A stretch of DNA of 45,707 nucleotides from a virus. Shown here piece after piece: positions 33,217 through 40,614 of the stretch; the first letter of the stretch is position 1, and each line of letters begins with the position of its first letter. The DNA lies in the IMG/VR virus record IMGVR_UViG_3300036770_004539, positions 1 through 45,707 of that record. One strand, 5' to 3'. The notes beneath the pieces are model-generated. The model saw only the letters and a list, made by a program, of their open reading frames with translations. It was not told where the DNA came from and did not search any database. Made by a program: the position numbers and the translations under genes.

Positions 33217-33374
33217 ACACGGCCGCCTTGCCCCAGCCGAACCCCGTCCCGCGCTCGCGCCCGCTCGCCGGTCCGCTCCGGCCGCGCGTCTCGGATGGCA
33301 GCTACCCCTTCCTCAATCACCGGACATGGGCGGAAATCCTCGCCGATGCCGGGCGGAGTGACGCCCATGCGTGA
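33213..33374 (+). CDS. Hypothetical 53-residue protein
   Basis: ATG 33213 overlaps the previous stop (ATGA) and its own end overlaps the helicase-methyltransferase start by 8 nt. It is proline/arginine-rich at first (LPQPNPVPRSRPLAGPLRPR), then SYPFLNHRTWAEILADAG. Too short for a family call. Function unknown. Confidence 0.55.
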   Translation: MNTAALPQPNPVPRSRPLAGPLRPRVSDGSYPFLNHRTWAEILADAGRSDAHA

Positions 33375-35952
33375 CTATCAGGCATTTCTTGAAGCCAAGG
33401 TTCCCCAGGCGCAGCCCGCGGGCCTGTCCTGCGACCTCGACGACGTGCGCGCCCAGTTGGTCGACGGCCGTCCGATGCGCGATCACGTCCGGCCTATCGT
33501 CAAATGGGCAGTCGAGGGCGGGCGCCGCGCACTCTTCGAGGCGTTCGGCCTGCACAAGACGATCCAGCAGATCGAGATCCTCGACATCATCCTGCACAAG
33601 CTGCTGGTCAATGAGAACCGCTGGGCGTTCGCGCTGATCGTCGCGCCGCTCGGCGTGCGAGCCGAATTTCTACACGACGCCGCCATGCTCGGCGTCGACA
33701 TCCACTTCGTGAAGTCGGATGCGGAGATCGACGCGCTCGGCCTGCGCGGTGGCATCCTGCTTACCAATTACGAGAGCATCCGCGAGGGCAAGATCAGCAT
33801 CGACCGCTTCACGGCGGTCAGCCTAGACGAAGCGGATTGCCTGCGCTCCTACGGGTCGAAGACGTTCCAGACGTTCCTGCCCCTGTTCGAGAATGTCCCC
33901 TATCGCTTCGTCGCCACCGCGACGCCCTCGCCCAACCGCTACAAGGAGCTGATCCATTATGCCGGGTTCCTCGGCATCATGGACACCGGCCAGGCGCTGA
34001 CCCGCTTCTTCCAGCGCAACAGTGAAAAGGCGGGCGACCTCACCCTCTACCCGCACAAGGAAGAGGAATTCTGGCTGTGGGTAAACAGCTGGGCGATCTG
34101 CCTGCAGCGCCCCAGCGACCTCGGCTTTTCCGACGAGGGCTATGAGCTTCCCCCGATCGAGGTGCGCTGGCACCAGGTAAAGACGAACATTGCAGATGCC
34201 GGCGCGGACGCGCGCGGGCAAGGCCGCCTCCTGCGCGATGCCGCCATGGGCGTGCAGGAGGCGGCCCGCGAGAAGCGCTCGACGCTGCACGATCGCGTCG
34301 CCAAGGTCGCGGAGATCGTTCAGGCGAGCCCGGCCGACCATTTCATTCTCTGGCACGACCTTGAGGATGAGCGCAAAGCGCTCGCCGCCGCGATCCCGGA
34401 AAGCGAATTCGTCTTTGGCACGCAGAAGCTCGACGCGCGTGAGGCGATCGTCGAGCGGTTCAAGGCGGGCACGCTGCGCAACCTCGGCGCCAAGCCGGTT
34501 ATGATGGGCGCGGGCGGCAACCTCCAGCGCAACTGCCACCGGGCGGTCTTCGCGGGCGTTGGCTTCAAGTTCCGCGACTTCATCCAGGCGATCCACCGCA
34601 TCCAGCGCTTCGGCCAGCCGAATCCGGTCGAGATCGACATCGTGCATGCCGAGACAGAGACGGAGGTGGTGCGCGAGCTGCAAGCGAAGTGGGCGCAGCA
34701 CGACGCGATGGCCGAGCGCATGAGCGGCATCATCCGGCGCTTCGGGCTCCAGCATGAAGTCGCTCTTGCCACCCTGCGCCGGTCGATCGGCGTCGAACGC
34801 CGCGTCGTCACTGGCGAGGGCTGGACGATGGCGCATAACGATTGCGTCGATGAAGCCGCGCGGCTCGCACCGGGTTCGGTCGACCTGATCGTGACCTCGA
34901 TCCCCTTCTCCAACCACTACGAATACACGCCGAGCTACAACGACTTCGGCCATACCGACGGCGACGATCACTTCTTCGCCCAGATGGACCACCTCACCCC
35001 GGCCCTGCTCGAAGCGCTGGCGCCCGGCCGCCTCGCCTGCATCCACGTCAAGGATCGGATCCTGTTCGGGAGCGTGACGGGCGAGGGCGTGCCGACGGTC
35101 AACCCGTTCCACGCCAAGGCGCTGTTCCATTATCTCAAGCACGGCTTCCAGTATCTCGGGATGATCCACGTCAACACCGACGTGGTCCGCGAGAACAACC
35201 AGACCTACCGGCTCTCCTATAGCGAGATGCTCAAGGACGGGACGAAGATGGGCGTCGGCTCGCCCGAATACGTCCTGCTGCTGCGCAAGCCGCAGAGCGA
35301 CACCAGCCGCGCCTATGCCGACACGCCGGTGGTCAAGGATGCCGCCGACTACAGCCTGGCGCGCTGGCAGATCGACGCGCACAGCTTCTGGCGATCGAGC
35401 GGCAACCGGCCGGCCACGCCAGACGAACTGTCAAACATTGCTTGTCGGTTCGCGGAAATGCCGATCGGGCAGCTGGTCAAGCGCTTCCTTACCGAGACGC
35501 GCGACCTGATCTACGATCATGAGGCGCACGTCGCGATCGGCGAGGCGATCGAGGCCCGGGCGGGCAGCGACGGCCGTGGCAAGCTCCCCCGCACGTTCAT
35601 GAGCCTCGCCCCGGGCGCACACCGCGACGACACATGGGATGACGTAGCGCGGATGCGCACGCTCAACGCCGAGCAGGTGCGGAAGGGTGCGGAAAAGCAC
35701 GTCTGCCCGCTGCAGTTCGACATCGTCGACCGCCTGATCGACCGGTTCAGCATGAAGGGCGAGCTTGTCTTCGATCCGTTCGCGGGGCTCGGCACCGTCC
35801 CGATGCGCGCGATCGAGAAGGGGCGGCGCGGCTACGGGTCGGAACTCAACCCCGACTATTTCGCCTTCGCCTGCGGCTACCTCGCCGATGCCGAGAAGGC
35901 CGCGTCCATCCCCAGCCTGTTCGACCTGCTCGACATGGAGGCTGCGGCGTGA
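33367..35952 (+). CDS. Helicase-DNA methyltransferase fusion
   Basis: 861 residues from ATG 33367 (GGAG 8 nt upstream). The N-terminal half is an SF2/SNF2-type helicase: degenerate Walker A FGLHKT at 60-65, DEAD box LDEADC at 153-158, VATATPSPN at 182-190 and motif VI HRIQRFGQ near 411. The C-terminal half is an N4/N6-type DNA methyltransferase in permuted order: VTSIPFSNHYEY near 510-521 (in place of the usual DPPY-like motif), then the SAM-binding DPFAGLGTVP near 802. The extreme C-terminus reads SIPSLFDLLDMEAAA. It probably modifies phage DNA during replication. Confidence 0.83.
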   Translation: MRDYQAFLEAKVPQAQPAGLSCDLDDVRAQLVDGRPMRDHVRPIVKWAVEGGRRALFEAFGLHKTIQQIEILDIILHKLLVNENRWAFALIVAPLGVRAEFLHDAAMLGVDIHFVKSDAEIDALGLRGGILLTNYESIREGKISIDRFTAVSLDEADCLRSYGSKTFQTFLPLFENVPYRFVATATPSPNRYKELIHYAGFLGIMDTGQALTRFFQRNSEKAGDLTLYPHKEEEFWLWVNSWAICLQRPSDLGFSDEGYELPPIEVRWHQVKTNIADAGADARGQGRLLRDAAMGVQEAAREKRSTLHDRVAKVAEIVQASPADHFILWHDLEDERKALAAAIPESEFVFGTQKLDAREAIVERFKAGTLRNLGAKPVMMGAGGNLQRNCHRAVFAGVGFKFRDFIQAIHRIQRFGQPNPVEIDIVHAETETEVVRELQAKWAQHDAMAERMSGIIRRFGLQHEVALATLRRSIGVERRVVTGEGWTMAHNDCVDEAARLAPGSVDLIVTSIPFSNHYEYTPSYNDFGHTDGDDHFFAQMDHLTPALLEALAPGRLACIHVKDRILFGSVTGEGVPTVNPFHAKALFHYLKHGFQYLGMIHVNTDVVRENNQTYRLSYSEMLKDGTKMGVGSPEYVLLLRKPQSDTSRAYADTPVVKDAADYSLARWQIDAHSFWRSSGNRPATPDELSNIACRFAEMPIGQLVKRFLTETRDLIYDHEAHVAIGEAIEARAGSDGRGKLPRTFMSLAPGAHRDDTWDDVARMRTLNAEQVRKGAEKHVCPLQFDIVDRLIDRFSMKGELVFDPFAGLGTVPMRAIEKGRRGYGSELNPDYFAFACGYLADAEKAASIPSLFDLLDMEAAA

Positions 35953-36319: not shown

Positions 36320-36594
36320 GCGAGCCGAAAAGCGGCTCGCCCGCTCCCCTCTCCCCATTGGCGCAGCTGACTTGGGCATCGACCTATCTCGGCGTGTCCA
36401 CCCTCGCGCAAGCGCTTGGCATCGAAGAGCGCTCCGCGCGCGCCAAGCTGTCGGGCGACCGGGGGATCAGCCCGGCCGACCTGACCGCGATCATTCCCGC
36501 GCTCGAACAGCGCGCCACCGCCATCGCCAACCTGCTCGCCGCACTCCAGCGCGCGCAACCCTCTCCGCCTCCCATTGAAAGGATCGAAGCGTGA
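36316..36594 (+). CDS. Small HTH-like protein before the clamp gene
   Basis: 92 residues from ATG 36316 (ATGA overlap). The central part STYLGVSTLAQALGIEERSA, then RAKLSGDRGISPADLTAIIP, has the layout of an XRE-type HTH (LAQALGIEERSARAKLSG as turn and recognition helix). The C-terminal part is proline-rich. It may regulate early genes or assist replication; no family is certain. Confidence 0.6.
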   Translation: MSEPKSGSPAPLSPLAQLTWASTYLGVSTLAQALGIEERSARAKLSGDRGISPADLTAIIPALEQRATAIANLLAALQRAQPSPPPIERIEA

Positions 36595-37712
36595 CCAAAC
36601 CCCTGTCCATTGAATTCGAGACCGGCGTGCTGTCAGCCGCGCTGCGCGAGGTGCGCGAAGCGGTAGAGCGTCGCAACACGATCGAGATCTGTTCGGCCGT
36701 GCTGATCGAGGCCGGACCCGACGGCGCGACACTGACCACCACCGACCTCGACGTGATGATCCGGCGCTCGCTGCCCTGCGTCGCTGCCCAGCCGATCCGC
36801 TTTGCGGTCGACGCGCTGCGCCTCACCGACATCGTCGGCACCTTCGCCGCAGGGAGCCAGACGGTGATCGAGGTTGGTGTCGATGGCGCGATCGTCCGCT
36901 CCGGCCGGTCTCGCACGCGCTTCGCGACCCGCGAGGCGAGCGACTTCCCGATCCTCGCCAATGGCAAAGCCGATGCGACCTTCACCCTACCCGGCCGCGC
37001 ACTGGCAGAATCGTTCGGCTCCGTCCGCCATGCGATCAGCACCGAAGAGACCCGCTACTATCTCAACGGCATCTTCATGCACGTCGGCAAGGGCGACGGC
37101 CTGCGCTTCGCCGCGACCGACGGGCACCGACTGGCGCGGCTGATCACGCCCTGCCCGGCCGGGGCGGAGACCCTGCCCGACGCGATCGTGCCGACCAAGA
37201 CAGTCAACCTGATCCTCAAGCTCGCTGACAGCCGCAGCGACGTGCCGTTCGAGATCGAGGTGAACGCGACGAAGATCCGGTTCAGCGCGGGCGATGTGAT
37301 GCTGACCGCAAAACTCGTGGACGGCACCTTCCCCGACTACGACCGCGTCATGCCCGCTGCGCCGAACTGCGCGGCCATCATCGATCGCGACGCCCTCGCC
37401 GCCGCCGCTGCTCGGTTGGCCGTCACCACCAGCGACAAGGTGCGTGCAGCAAAACTCACCTTCGAGGCGGAGCGCCTGGTCCTGTCGACCACTTCGCAGA
37501 CGCATGGCGAGGCGATCGACGAAGTGCCATGCGAGTTCGACGGCAAGCCTGGGTTCGAGATCGGGTTCAACCTCCGCTACATGCGGGACACCCTCGACGC
37601 GCTTGACGCCGACACCGTCCGCTTCGCGCTCACCGATGGTGCCGCCCCCACCGCAATCACCAGCGCCGTGCCAGGCGGGCTCACGCTAGTCCTGATGCCG
37701 ATGCGCGTCTGA
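36591..37712 (+). CDS. dnaN: DNA polymerase III sliding clamp (beta subunit), phage-encoded
   Basis: 373 residues, close to the 366 of host-type beta clamps, and apparently complete, with three clamp domains. Recognisable segments are RYYLNGIFMHVGKG and LRFAATDGHRLARL in the central domain and VDGTFPDYDRVMP later. The C-terminus LVLMPMRV retains the MPMR ending that forms the peptide-binding pocket of bacterial clamps, so partners could still dock. GTG start by GTGA overlap. The clamp should encircle DNA and tether polymerase and other enzymes during phage replication. No phage DNA polymerase gene was found, so a host polymerase is presumably used. Confidence 0.9.
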   Translation: MTKPLSIEFETGVLSAALREVREAVERRNTIEICSAVLIEAGPDGATLTTTDLDVMIRRSLPCVAAQPIRFAVDALRLTDIVGTFAAGSQTVIEVGVDGAIVRSGRSRTRFATREASDFPILANGKADATFTLPGRALAESFGSVRHAISTEETRYYLNGIFMHVGKGDGLRFAATDGHRLARLITPCPAGAETLPDAIVPTKTVNLILKLADSRSDVPFEIEVNATKIRFSAGDVMLTAKLVDGTFPDYDRVMPAAPNCAAIIDRDALAAAAARLAVTTSDKVRAAKLTFEAERLVLSTTSQTHGEAIDEVPCEFDGKPGFEIGFNLRYMRDTLDALDADTVRFALTDGAAPTAITSAVPGGLTLVLMPMRV

Positions 37713-37724
37713 GGGAGACGATCA

Positions 37725-38078
37725 ATGCCGATGATTTCAGGTGCCGTGCAGGTCGAGGACATTCTCGACGCCCTTGATCTGACCCAGCCGCCGGCCGGGT
37801 GCCACTATGCTATGACCGACTACATCCGGTTCAACGAAATCCGCGTCGAGCAGCATGAGATCGACGCGGAGGCGAGCGACGTCGAGCCCGAACAAATCAT
37901 GGTCGATACCCAGTCGATCCGAGAGGGAGTGCGCTACGCCCTTGCCGGTGACTGGTCCATGGCAGCGATCATGCTCCACCGAGGGCTCGACGGCCACGAC
38001 GACGCGCAGCGCGCGGTCGAGGAAGAACTCCGCTGGGCCAATGAGCAGCGCGCCCGCGCGGCACGGAGGGCAGCATGA
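37725..38078 (+). CDS. Hypothetical acidic protein after the clamp
   Basis: 117 residues from ATG 37725 with GGGAG upstream. It is acidic in the middle (QHEIDAEASDVEPEQIMVDT) and helical at the end (AAIMLHRGLDGHDDAQRAVE, then EELRWANEQRARAARRAA). No family was recognised. Its position after the clamp gene suggests a replication-associated role, but nothing in the sequence proves it. Confidence 0.6.
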   Translation: MPMISGAVQVEDILDALDLTQPPAGCHYAMTDYIRFNEIRVEQHEIDAEASDVEPEQIMVDTQSIREGVRYALAGDWSMAAIMLHRGLDGHDDAQRAVEEELRWANEQRARAARRAA

Positions 38079-38587
38079 GCGGCTCCCCGATCCCGATGCA
38101 CAATCTCGGCGACATGCAGGTCTGGGCACTCGGCATCATCACGATGCGCGCGCCCGACTTCGTCATCGGCCCGGCCGACAACCCCTATCTGCGGCGTTGG
38201 TGGATCATCCCGCGCAACCCGTGGTGCAACGTCTATCTGCACGAAATCCTGCGCAGCGACGACGACCGGGCGGGCCACGATCATCCATGGCCGAACACAT
38301 CGCTGTTGATCGACGGCGGATATGAGGAAGTCATCTACGACGAGTTCTCGCCGTGGCTGGAATATCAGCGCGTCGAGCGCAAGGCCGGGGACACGATCGT
38401 CCGCCAGGCGACCGACACGCACCGGCTGATCGTGCCCGACGGCGGGCGCTGCATCTCCCTGTTCATGACCGGCCCGAAGGAACGCGAGTGGGGCTTCTGG
38501 TGCCCAGACGGCAAGGGCTGGGTCCATTGGCAGAAGTTCACCGGCGGCGAGCATGGCGAGCTGGTCGGTCAGGGGTGTGAAGCATAA
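38075..38587 (+). CDS. Cupin-fold phage protein
   Basis: 170 residues from ATG 38075 (ATGA overlap). It has a cupin-like pattern: GHDHPWPNTSLLIDGGYEE (H68, H70), then DTHRLIVPDGG (H116) and ISLFMTGPKEREWGFWCPDG, which ends as in a group of phage proteins with KGWVHWQKF. The histidines could bind a metal. Enzyme activity is unknown; it might make or bind a small metabolite. It sits directly before the cytosine methyltransferase, TAATG overlap. Confidence 0.7.
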   Translation: MSGSPIPMHNLGDMQVWALGIITMRAPDFVIGPADNPYLRRWWIIPRNPWCNVYLHEILRSDDDRAGHDHPWPNTSLLIDGGYEEVIYDEFSPWLEYQRVERKAGDTIVRQATDTHRLIVPDGGRCISLFMTGPKEREWGFWCPDGKGWVHWQKFTGGEHGELVGQGCEA

Positions 38588-40614
38588 TGGCCGCGCTCAC
38601 TGGCTTCACCACCTCCGAACGGATCATCCGCCACGCCCATGTCTTCTGCGGCGTTGGTGCAGGGGCGAAGGGCTTCAACATGGCGAAGGCGCGCGTCGGC
38701 AACGTCGCGGCCAAGTTCCTGTGCACGGGCGGCATTGATGTCGACCCGGGCGCTATCCGCAACTTCGAGCGGCTGACCGGTTGCCCTGGCACCGTCATGG
38801 ACCTGTTCGATCGCGGACAGTTCACCGCGTTCCACGGTCGCGAGCCGGGCGAGGGCTGGCGTGAACAGACCCCCGCCGATGTCCGCGCTGCGCTCGTCGG
38901 TCCGGACGGCATCCGGCCAGACGTCATCTTCCTGTCGGCGCCCTGCAAGGGTTTCTCGGGGCTGCTTTCGTCGAAGCAGTCGGGCACCGACAAGTATCAG
39001 GCGCTCAACGGGCTGACCCTGCGCGGCGTCTGGCTGATCTGCGAGGCATTCAAGGACGGGCCGATCCCGGTCATCCTGTTTGAGAATGTCCCGCGGATCC
39101 TGACCCGCGGGCGCGGGCTGCTCGACCAAATCGCGGCGATCTTGCGCGGCTATGGCTACAATGTCGCCGAGACCGTCCACGATTGCGGCGAGCTGGGCGG
39201 GCTGGCGCAGAGCCGCAAACGCATGCTGCTGATCGCTCGCCAGCGCGAGATCATCCCGAACTTCATCTACGAGCCAGAGAAGAAGCGGTTGCGCGGCGTT
39301 GGCGAGGTGATCGGCAATCTGCCCCTGCCGGGCGATCCGGTCGCCGGCATCATGCACCGCGTCCCGATGCTCCAGTGGAAAACATGGATGCGGCTTGCGC
39401 TGGTCCCGGCCGGGCGCGACTGGCGCGCGCTCAATGAACTCGCCGTCGTCGATGGGGTGCTGCGCGATTATGGCATCGCCCCCGACCAGGCGCTGCGCGA
39501 CGGCGTGCTCGGCGTAATGGGATGGGGCGAGACTGCGGGAACGGTCATCGGTAACCAGCGCTCGCCGTTACACGGGCGGCACAGCGTTGCCGATCCCCGC
39601 ACCGCTGAGATGCACAATGAAGCGCTTGGCGTTCGGGACTGGCTGGATCCTGCCCGCGTGGTCGCTGGCGCGTCCCGTCCTCATAATGGCGCGCATAGCG
39701 TCGCCGACCCTCGCCCGCAGCAGTCCAACCAGACCTATCACCAATACGGCGTGAGGGGATGGGCCGAACCGGCCGGCACAGTTACGGGGCAGAGCGCGCC
39801 AGGCGGCGGCCCTAACTCAATCGCCGACCCCCGTCTCGGCCGCGTGGCGCATTCTAACGTCTATCGCATCGCTCGCTTCGACACACCGGCCACGGCGGTG
39901 ACATCCAGCCGCGACACGGCCGTGGCGGACCCGCGCGGCACAGCCAGCGACTACACCTCAACCAAATACATGATCACGCCTTGGGAAGGGCAAAGCAGGA
40001 CCGTGATCGGTGCTTCGACCACCGGAGACGGGGCTTTCGCGGTTGCCGACCCCCGGCCGCTCGCTTTCCGCGATGGGCGAGAGCATTATGTCACCGGCGG
40101 CCACTATGGCGTCGTCGGCTGGCATGACACCGCCCTGACCGTCTCGGGCTCTGCAAGCTACGACAATGGCCGCAACTCTGTTGCCGATCCTCGCGAAATC
40201 GAGGCGTCAGGCGCACCCTATGCTCTACCCGCCCCCGACGACCGACTTGTCGCGCGCATCATCGCCCTGGACGGCACGTGGCACCGACCCTTCACCACGC
40301 TCGACCTCGCGGCGCTCCAGTCGATCGTCGATCCCGAAGAGGTATTCTACCGCGACGCGGACGGCTGGCACGCTCGGATGCCATTCGAACTGGACAGCAA
40401 AAGCGACAGTGAGAAGCGGGAGTGGATCGGCAACGCTGTCCCCAGCGAGAGCGCGGCCGAAATCGCGAGCGTAATCGGCGAGGCCATCCTGCTCGCTGAC
40501 CTTGGCGAGACCTTCTCGCTTTCCACAAAGGCGATTTGGGTTTCGCCCGTGCGCGTCGCGCTCGCCGTCGAGCAACAGCAGGCCGCCCTTCAATGGGAGG
40601 CTGGCGCTGCGTGA
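38587..40614 (+). CDS. C5 cytosine DNA methyltransferase with six internal ADPR repeats
   Basis: 675 residues. Motif I is HVFCGVGAGAKGF (18-30). The catalytic loop is SAPCKGFSG with Cys120 (PCK instead of the usual PCQ). Motif VI is FENVPR (165-170), motif VIII QSRKRMLLIARQ (208-219) and motif X GNAVPSESA (615-623), so the enzyme looks active. Between VIII and X, where the target-recognition region lies, residues about 308-536 form six repeats of about 30-50 residues, each with an aromatic-plus-TV core and ending in ADPR (338, 376, 416, 450, 490, 536). It probably protects phage DNA from restriction. Confidence 0.85.
   Translation: MAALTGFTTSERIIRHAHVFCGVGAGAKGFNMAKARVGNVAAKFLCTGGIDVDPGAIRNFERLTGCPGTVMDLFDRGQFTAFHGREPGEGWREQTPADVRAALVGPDGIRPDVIFLSAPCKGFSGLLSSKQSGTDKYQALNGLTLRGVWLICEAFKDGPIPVILFENVPRILTRGRGLLDQIAAILRGYGYNVAETVHDCGELGGLAQSRKRMLLIARQREIIPNFIYEPEKKRLRGVGEVIGNLPLPGDPVAGIMHRVPMLQWKTWMRLALVPAGRDWRALNELAVVDGVLRDYGIAPDQALRDGVLGVMGWGETAGTVIGNQRSPLHGRHSVADPRTAEMHNEALGVRDWLDPARVVAGASRPHNGAHSVADPRPQQSNQTYHQYGVRGWAEPAGTVTGQSAPGGGPNSIADPRLGRVAHSNVYRIARFDTPATAVTSSRDTAVADPRGTASDYTSTKYMITPWEGQSRTVIGASTTGDGAFAVADPRPLAFRDGREHYVTGGHYGVVGWHDTALTVSGSASYDNGRNSVADPREIEASGAPYALPAPDDRLVARIIALDGTWHRPFTTLDLAALQSIVDPEEVFYRDADGWHARMPFELDSKSDSEKREWIGNAVPSESAAEIASVIGEAILLADLGETFSLSTKAIWVSPVRVALAVEQQQAALQWEAGAA
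39508..40194 (+). repeat. Six-fold protein-level repeat in the cytosine methyltransferase
   Basis: Repeat units share the scheme G-V-x-G-W-(about 3)-P-A-(x)-T-V-x-G ... G-x-x-S-V-ADPR. Examples are MGWGETAGTVIG/HSVADPR, RGWAEPAGTVTG/NSIADPR and VGWHDTALTVSG/NSVADPR. Codons for the same residues differ between copies, so the array is not a recent DNA duplication. The TV core resembles the end of the target-recognition region of C5 methyltransferases. Confidence 0.8.

Follow-up and report, generated by a model that had tools for sequence, protein, structure and literature searches.

What are six tandem repeats doing inside a single phage DNA methyltransferase? The window, which is the whole of a 45.7-kb virus record, encodes a C5-cytosine methyltransferase with six related units inserted among its catalytic motifs. 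Such an array could give one enzyme several targets, let it read a single long site, or consist largely of inert copies around one working unit. Since the 1980s, a small number of Bacillus phages have been known to encode multispecific C5 methyltransferases, each with a handful of modules, and how a single catalytic site works with several modules is a standing question.

The methyltransferase gene and its catalytic core

The gene and its conserved motifs occupy the following positions in the window.

38587–40614, + strand: open reading frame of the C5-cytosine DNA methyltransferase, 675 aa, with PF00145, phrog_32684 and phrog_116 matches
38587–39486, + strand: N-terminal catalytic part, aa 1–300, with motifs I, IV, VI and VIII (AlphaFold, Foldseek)
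38941–38949, + strand: motif IV catalytic loop P119-C120-K121 (PCK), invariant in family alignments
39082–39090, + strand: motif VI, E166-N167-V168 (homolog alignments)
39208–39222, + strand: motif VIII, Q208-S-R-K-R212 (QSRKR; translation and homolog alignment)
40285–40320, + strand: motif IX, RPFTTLDLAALQ (RPFTT...LQ), aa 567–578 (homolog and profile alignment)
40429–40443, + strand: motif X, GNAVP, aa 615–619 (homolog alignments)

The protein is a C5-cytosine methyltransferase by its motifs, its PF00145 match and its fold. Motifs I (FCGVGAGAKGF), IV (PC), VI (ENV), VIII (QxRxR), IX and X are intact, in order, and invariant or nearly so among homologs. The Pfam DNA_methylase profile PF00145 matches residues 111–228 above the family cut-off (6.8e-12), and the protein also matches phrog_32684, a cluster without a named function (9.8e-99), and phrog_116, annotated as DNA methyltransferase (9e-43). 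In the AlphaFold model, pLDDT is mostly above 80 up to about residue 250 and 40–66 between about residues 250 and 300. The modelled catalytic domain has the class I methyltransferase fold, matching plant MET1, mammalian DNMT1 and M.HaeIII in Foldseek, and a whole-family profile searched against the PDB returned weak matches to DNMT1 and MET1 only, together with one spurious capsid protein.

The catalytic loop reads PCK, not PCQ. The sequence-only reading had taken this as the mark of an uncommon subfamily, which holds in the sense of family-wide invariance: PCK is present in 159 of 159 homologs and is thus not peculiar to the window protein. An altered loop would fit a modular, multispecific modifier that has a regulatory role or transfers a group other than methyl, such as carboxymethyl in the manner of cyanophage CmoX, and C5-methyltransferase homologs that use another cofactor do occur in phages (PMC12783734). 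Such a role or chemistry is nonetheless very unlikely here. Motif X is conserved across homologs as GN[AML]VP, neither cmoA-like nor ligase neighbours of the CmoX type were found among the ten window ORFs scanned by family profiles, and mobility on phages and plasmids, combined with the fast change of repertoire described below, suits anti-restriction better than regulation. The product of the window enzyme is expected to be 5-methylcytosine.

The six-unit array

A unit profile was built from homologs alone, with the window protein excluded, and was then run on the window protein. It recovered six units within residues 306–536.

39502–39600, + strand: unit 1, GVLGVMGWGETAGTVIGNQRSPLHGRHSVADPR, aa 306–338 (homolog profile, 45.0 bits)
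39622–39714, + strand: unit 2, ALGVRDWLDPARVVAGASRPHNGAHSVADPR, aa 346–376, VV core (homolog profile, 46.8 bits)
39739–39834, + strand: unit 3, HQYGVRGWAEPAGTVTGQSAPGGGPNSIADPR, aa 385–416 (homolog profile, 50.5 bits)
39853–39936, + strand: unit 4, SNVYRIARFDTPATAVTSSRDTAVADPR, aa 423–450, AV core and short loop (homolog profile, 23.5 bits)
39961–40056, + strand: unit 5, TKYMITPWEGQSRTVIGASTTGDGAFAVADPR, aa 459–490, ASTTG loop (homolog profile, 48.7 bits)
40096–40194, + strand: unit 6, GGHYGVVGWHDTALTVSGSASYDNGRNSVADPR, aa 504–536, of the type that stands last in 152 of 159 homologs (homolog profile, 45.7 bits)

The repeat array perceived in the sequence-only reading is real, since the six units score 23.5–50.5 bits and the best of 1000 shuffled window proteins reaches 6.9 bits. 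Its coordinates, given there as 39508–40194, are correct to within two codons of the profile result (39502–40194). The array had been placed between motifs VIII and X; it does begin after motif VIII, but it ends before motif IX and so lies between VIII and IX, the usual site of the target-recognition domain in C5 methyltransferases. The proposed core, aromatic-P-A-x-TV-x-G, describes the units in general, with VV replacing TV in unit 2, AV in unit 4, and the PA pair fully kept in units 2, 3 and 4 only. The ADPR ending is found throughout, in that all six units close with an [SA][VI]ADPR box, the loop of unit 4 being shorter.

Each unit is 28–33 residues long, successive units are spaced 34–46 aa end to end, and the architecture is that of a TV/AV core followed by the closing box, with the consensus ggkygVvpWdepagtVtGasgpgnGafsVADPR. 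Units of the fifth kind, with the ASTTG loop, are among the most frequent of the family. AlphaFold gave no confident structure for the array, whether in the window protein run with 40 homologs (pLDDT 27–43) or in a three-unit homolog run with 39 sequences (mostly 23–47), and these low-confidence models are counted as evidence neither way. The unit profile found no match in the PDB at E 1.

Distribution and unit number

The family was sampled as 159 unique phage, prophage and plasmid proteins, a set biased to Pseudomonas and to the search queries. By tblastn, it is present in 36 phage records, 31 of them from Pseudomonas; the remaining phage records belong to Sinorhizobium PBC5, Marinobacter PS3, Achromobacter CF418P1 and a phiCTX fragment. 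Members were also found in 165 plasmid records, including plasmids of Roseomonas, Burkholderia, Bacillus and Paenibacillus, and in a Nitratidesulfovibrio plasmid, and the carrier plasmids are conjugative or mobilizable. Profile scans of viral contigs yielded at least 579 and at least 583 relatives, and a search of genome contigs with the single window protein returned two Sphingomonas loci only. The hosts span Pseudomonadota, Bacillota and Thermodesulfobacteriota. In RefSeq phage and plasmid records, family members are annotated as 'DNA cytosine methyltransferase'.

Repeat counts in homologs, which had been proposed as a check on the array, range from 3 to 11 across the 159 proteins. Arrays of four (49 proteins), six (48) and five units (33) are followed by those of three (11), seven (8), eight (6) and nine (2), with one protein each at ten and eleven. 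The catalytic part is near-constant in length whatever the unit number.

In Pseudomonas phage PA8 (L018), the member is broken: two pieces together match only 53% of the query, and the open frame lacks most of the catalytic part as well as the beginning of the array. Positions 1–186 of the short Citexvirus phiCTX records D13409 and S75107 are the C-terminal end of a family member, and the PBC5 annotation cites phiCTX orf41 as similar.

Unit types and repertoire

The units fall into discrete types. At a clustering cut-off of 0.5 there are 49 of them in an initial set and 56 in the full one; the count depends on the cut-off and drops to 31 at 0.55 and 21 at 0.6. Identical types recur across different proteins. 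Units of the window lie at a distance of 0.08–0.24 from their nearest unit elsewhere, compared with 0.59–0.86 from their sister units in the same array. Within a protein, types are not repeated: the 68 distinct architectures contain 0 repeats, where random assignment of types would give 52.2 +/- 5.0, and the few repeats that appear at looser cut-offs remain far below expectation. Taken alone, non-repetition could also be explained by inheritance in fixed positions, but changes of order and swaps of units speak otherwise. Both orders are seen for 27 of 304 co-occurring type pairs, and the arrays differ in 346 of 666 protein pairs (52%) with at least 95% catalytic identity. Homologs L184 and L159, for instance, have identical catalytic parts and arrays one unit apart.

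The ends of the array behave differently from its interior. The last place is taken by one type in 152 of 159 proteins and the first by another in 129 of 159, so that the end modules (39502–39600 and 40096–40194 in the window) are fixed in place and the internal ones are free. The cause of this locking may be structural.

Exchange and loss of units

Comparison at the DNA level reveals how arrays change. The genes of phages Dobby and D14A are mostly 84–100% identical in 45-nt blocks, and units 4–5 of Dobby correspond to one unit of another type in D14A. Between L191 and L204, a single 126-nt gap removes exactly one unit, with 96.1% identity elsewhere; between L164 and L159, there is one 120-nt gap in the array, plus a 9-nt gap at the extreme end of the gene, with 98.6% identity elsewhere. 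Both the 126-nt and the 120-nt gap start and stop in the VADPR-coding box, which makes this unit-ending box the likely crossover point.

The window protein, too, is a mosaic. Homolog L001 shares 88% of its catalytic part and is without the types of units 3 and 4, and L035 shares only 68% of the catalytic part, yet carries units 2, 3 and 4 at 79–84%. Among 1135 pairs of distant proteins (catalytic identity 70% or less), no units at least 90% identical were shared, so unit exchange occurs mainly within lineages or is old. Overall, the arrays turn over much faster than the catalytic domains.

This pattern bears on the view that the units jointly widen the DNA-binding surface and so produce broad, nearly sequence-independent cytosine methylation. 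Phages do use low-specificity methyltransferases for protection, and many different units could approach such an effect. Distinct conserved types and the fast exchange of whole types point instead to selection on which types are present and not just on their number, leaving broad methylation with only a very slight probability.

Evidence that the units are probable recognition modules

The units are probably recognition modules, because they occupy the place between motifs VIII and IX, align with the recognition segment of ordinary methyltransferases, share the spacing around TV, and carry two blocks of type-specific residues. When a profile of short family members was compared with seven ordinary C5 methyltransferases, the two aligned end to end (99.8%, E 5e-28). 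In that alignment, the ordinary recognition segment (YGRMKADEPSPTITT...; YGRMKADEPSPTITTQFFGFGNGRF) is matched to one unit and the other units appear as insertions. In L104, L106 and L227 (Bacillus phage), a stand-alone unit profile also picks out the TV segment that precedes motif IX, with weak scores, and this result is taken as supporting only.

In ordinary C5 methyltransferases, the recognition domain has a C-terminal motif, (YFW)X(RK)X5P(STCA)PT(ILV)(TASV)X5-16H(PFYWL), and DNA-contact trimers named N-TL and C-TL flank its TL dipeptide (PMC2413257). The spacing around TV in the units is that of the published motif, and the consensus itself is matched only in part. Counted from the T of the core, an aromatic residue stands at -11 in 67% of units, [STCA] at -2 in 91% and a hydrophobic residue at +1 in 100%; R/K at -9 is never present, V/I being found throughout instead, and P at -1 is rare. 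Three of the six window units agree with the strict TL motif at 5–6 of 8 positions. Since shuffled proteins average 0.8 such positions, this agreement is not strong evidence by itself.

Further evidence comes from the columns that distinguish types. In the 22 types represented by four or more non-redundant members, two blocks of columns, from -16 to -12 and from +4 to +9 relative to the T of the core, differ between types and are constant within them. The three most discriminating columns (+6, -12 and +5) all lie inside the published N-TL/C-TL contact trimers. Entropy at +5 to +9 is 0.5–0.9 bits within types and 2.4–3.6 bits overall, and the core between -9 and +3 is mostly common to all types. 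Such a two-block pattern would not be expected of a scaffold repeat.

These columns help to judge whether only one unit works, probably the near-universal last type or the first, with the rest acting as spacers, scaffold or degraded copies. The locked end types (152 of 159 and 129 of 159) and the absence of an AlphaFold fold for the array would agree with this, and inactive modules are known in phi3T-like enzymes. The internal types, however, keep their type-specific residues over many proteins, as spacers or decaying copies would not, and repeated types never occur, even though duplication would be the easiest source of spacers. A single working unit is therefore considered unlikely.

The sequence-only reading had left two options for a working array: several target sequences, or one unusually long site. 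For the latter, the units would lie side by side on the DNA as in TAL effectors, and their regular tandem arrangement, conserved core and variable contact residues are what such an arrangement would show. The option is hard to square with catalytic domains that are nearly identical yet carry anywhere from 3 to 11 units, and with units that change order. Unit number shifts by one between genes otherwise 96–99% identical, two units are replaced by one, and each type is by itself equipped with the two contact segments that flank the core in a complete minimal recognition domain. A rare target would also give little protection and would be disrupted at each unit loss. A single long site is thus highly improbable. 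The several-targets option gains support from type sharing, natural swaps, precise loss of single units, fast array turnover and the position of variable residues in the contact segments, which together suggest units that act separately.

A probable multispecific enzyme with exchangeable modules

The window gene is likely to encode an orphan multispecific C5 methyltransferase of a temperate phage, with six tandem minimal recognition modules and an anti-restriction benefit. In this mechanism, one catalytic domain would serve the whole array: each module would insert its own pair of DNA-reading segments, flanking the TV/AV core, into the recognition cleft and steer methylation to its own short cytosine-containing target. 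All six units would then be active, each with a different target. The [SA][VI]ADPR box would be the structural joint between modules and, at the DNA level, the repeat at which recombination adds, removes or swaps them. In this way, a single enzyme with a quickly changing repertoire could shield the DNA of a phage or plasmid against several restriction systems simultaneously.

The enzyme looks like an orphan, as the scan of ten window ORFs revealed no restriction endonuclease gene. A plasmid-encoded cytosine methyltransferase protects its plasmid from EcoRII restriction (PMC11602122), and phage DNA is protected by phage methyltransferases (PMC4190342). Together with carriage on both phages and plasmids, these precedents make protection against multiple restriction systems with a fast-changing set of modules the most likely role.

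There is roughly an even chance that the family represents a more general arrangement, in which mobile elements draw on a widespread and previously undescribed cassette system. More than 50 minimal DNA-reading modules would form a common pool that supplies each methyltransferase with 3–11 non-redundant specificities, the box would serve as both joint and recombination site, and the set would change faster than the enzyme diverges. The repeat array and its exchange are not described in the open-access literature searched; a description in a subscription journal or a database is possible.

If this arrangement holds and the modules are independent, a type-to-target code could be read and methyltransferases assembled with several specificities of choice. 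With its hundreds of enzymes of 3–11 modules, the family is a natural series in which L191/L204 and L164/L159 are one module apart and Dobby/D14A differ by one exchange; comparing the methylomes of these pairs would tie targets to modules directly. The findings also suggest that phages and plasmids maintain an evolving repertoire against restriction, which bears on the prediction of phage host range and plasmid transfer.

Comparison with known systems

The closest functional parallel is found in the enzymes of SPR, phi3T, rho11, SPbeta and H2, which are likewise orphan phage C5 methyltransferases with one core and, between motifs VIII and IX, tandem recognition domains that each contain a T-[LVI] box. 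The known SPbeta-type enzymes carry 2–5 modules, whereas the window family has 3–11, drawn from about 56 types, on both phages and plasmids. For the SPbeta group of Bacillus phages, several tandem recognition domains with several targets have been described (PMC8936443). In phi3T_150, two T-[LV] boxes lie 47 aa apart in the VIII–IX interval; its modules are not matched by the unit profile and lack the ADPR box that ends the units of the window family. The catalytic part is about 26% identical to that of phi3T_149, as measured with the Bacillus licheniformis plasmid member L139. By analogy, the window enzyme would work like the SPbeta and phi3T enzymes, yet it belongs to a separate, larger sequence family. 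Phage phi3T has two neighbouring methyltransferase genes (L226 and L228), both annotated as similar to SPbeta mtbP, of which the short one (326 aa) has one T-[LVI] box and the longer (437 aa) has two.

Ordinary enzymes of the M.HhaI, M.HaeIII and Dcm type (PF00145) resemble the window protein in catalytic motifs and fold, and their single recognition segment corresponds to one unit. They differ in having one segment and PCQ, as opposed to an array and PCK, and in the R/K two residues after the aromatic, where the window family has V/I. In enzymes of the M.(phi)BssHII type, the recognition domains reportedly lie at separated places in the enzyme, going by the title of Sethmann et al. 1999, whereas those of the window family all stand in one tandem array. 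Such enzymes, with several recognition domains in one C5 methyltransferase, are among those cited in PMC8936443. The clusters phrog_32684 and phrog_116 and the RefSeq 'DNA cytosine methyltransferase' entries are the family itself, known as sequence clusters and annotations.

Gene neighbourhood

The start of the methyltransferase ORF overlaps the stop of the preceding ORF (TAATG), so the two are probably translationally coupled. Three neighbours lie upstream.

33295–35952, + strand: 885-aa ORF combining an SNF2-type helicase part with a C-terminal N6/N4 DNA methylase part (PF00176, PF01555; phrog_16, phrog_67)
36591–37712, + strand: DNA polymerase III beta clamp DnaN, with all three Pfam domains
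38075–38587, + strand: ORF immediately upstream and TAATG-coupled, with a phrog_4786 'cysteine dioxygenase' match (2e-55)

The first of these is possibly a second DNA-modification or anti-restriction gene of the same cluster. DnaN (44.6% identity) is also found upstream of homolog L001. On plasmids, the methyltransferase adjoins rdgC in L144 (P. aeruginosa plasmid of RW109) and L141 (Nitratidesulfovibrio plasmid), with ssb nearby in L144; this proximity suggests an early-transfer or DNA-protection gene cluster.
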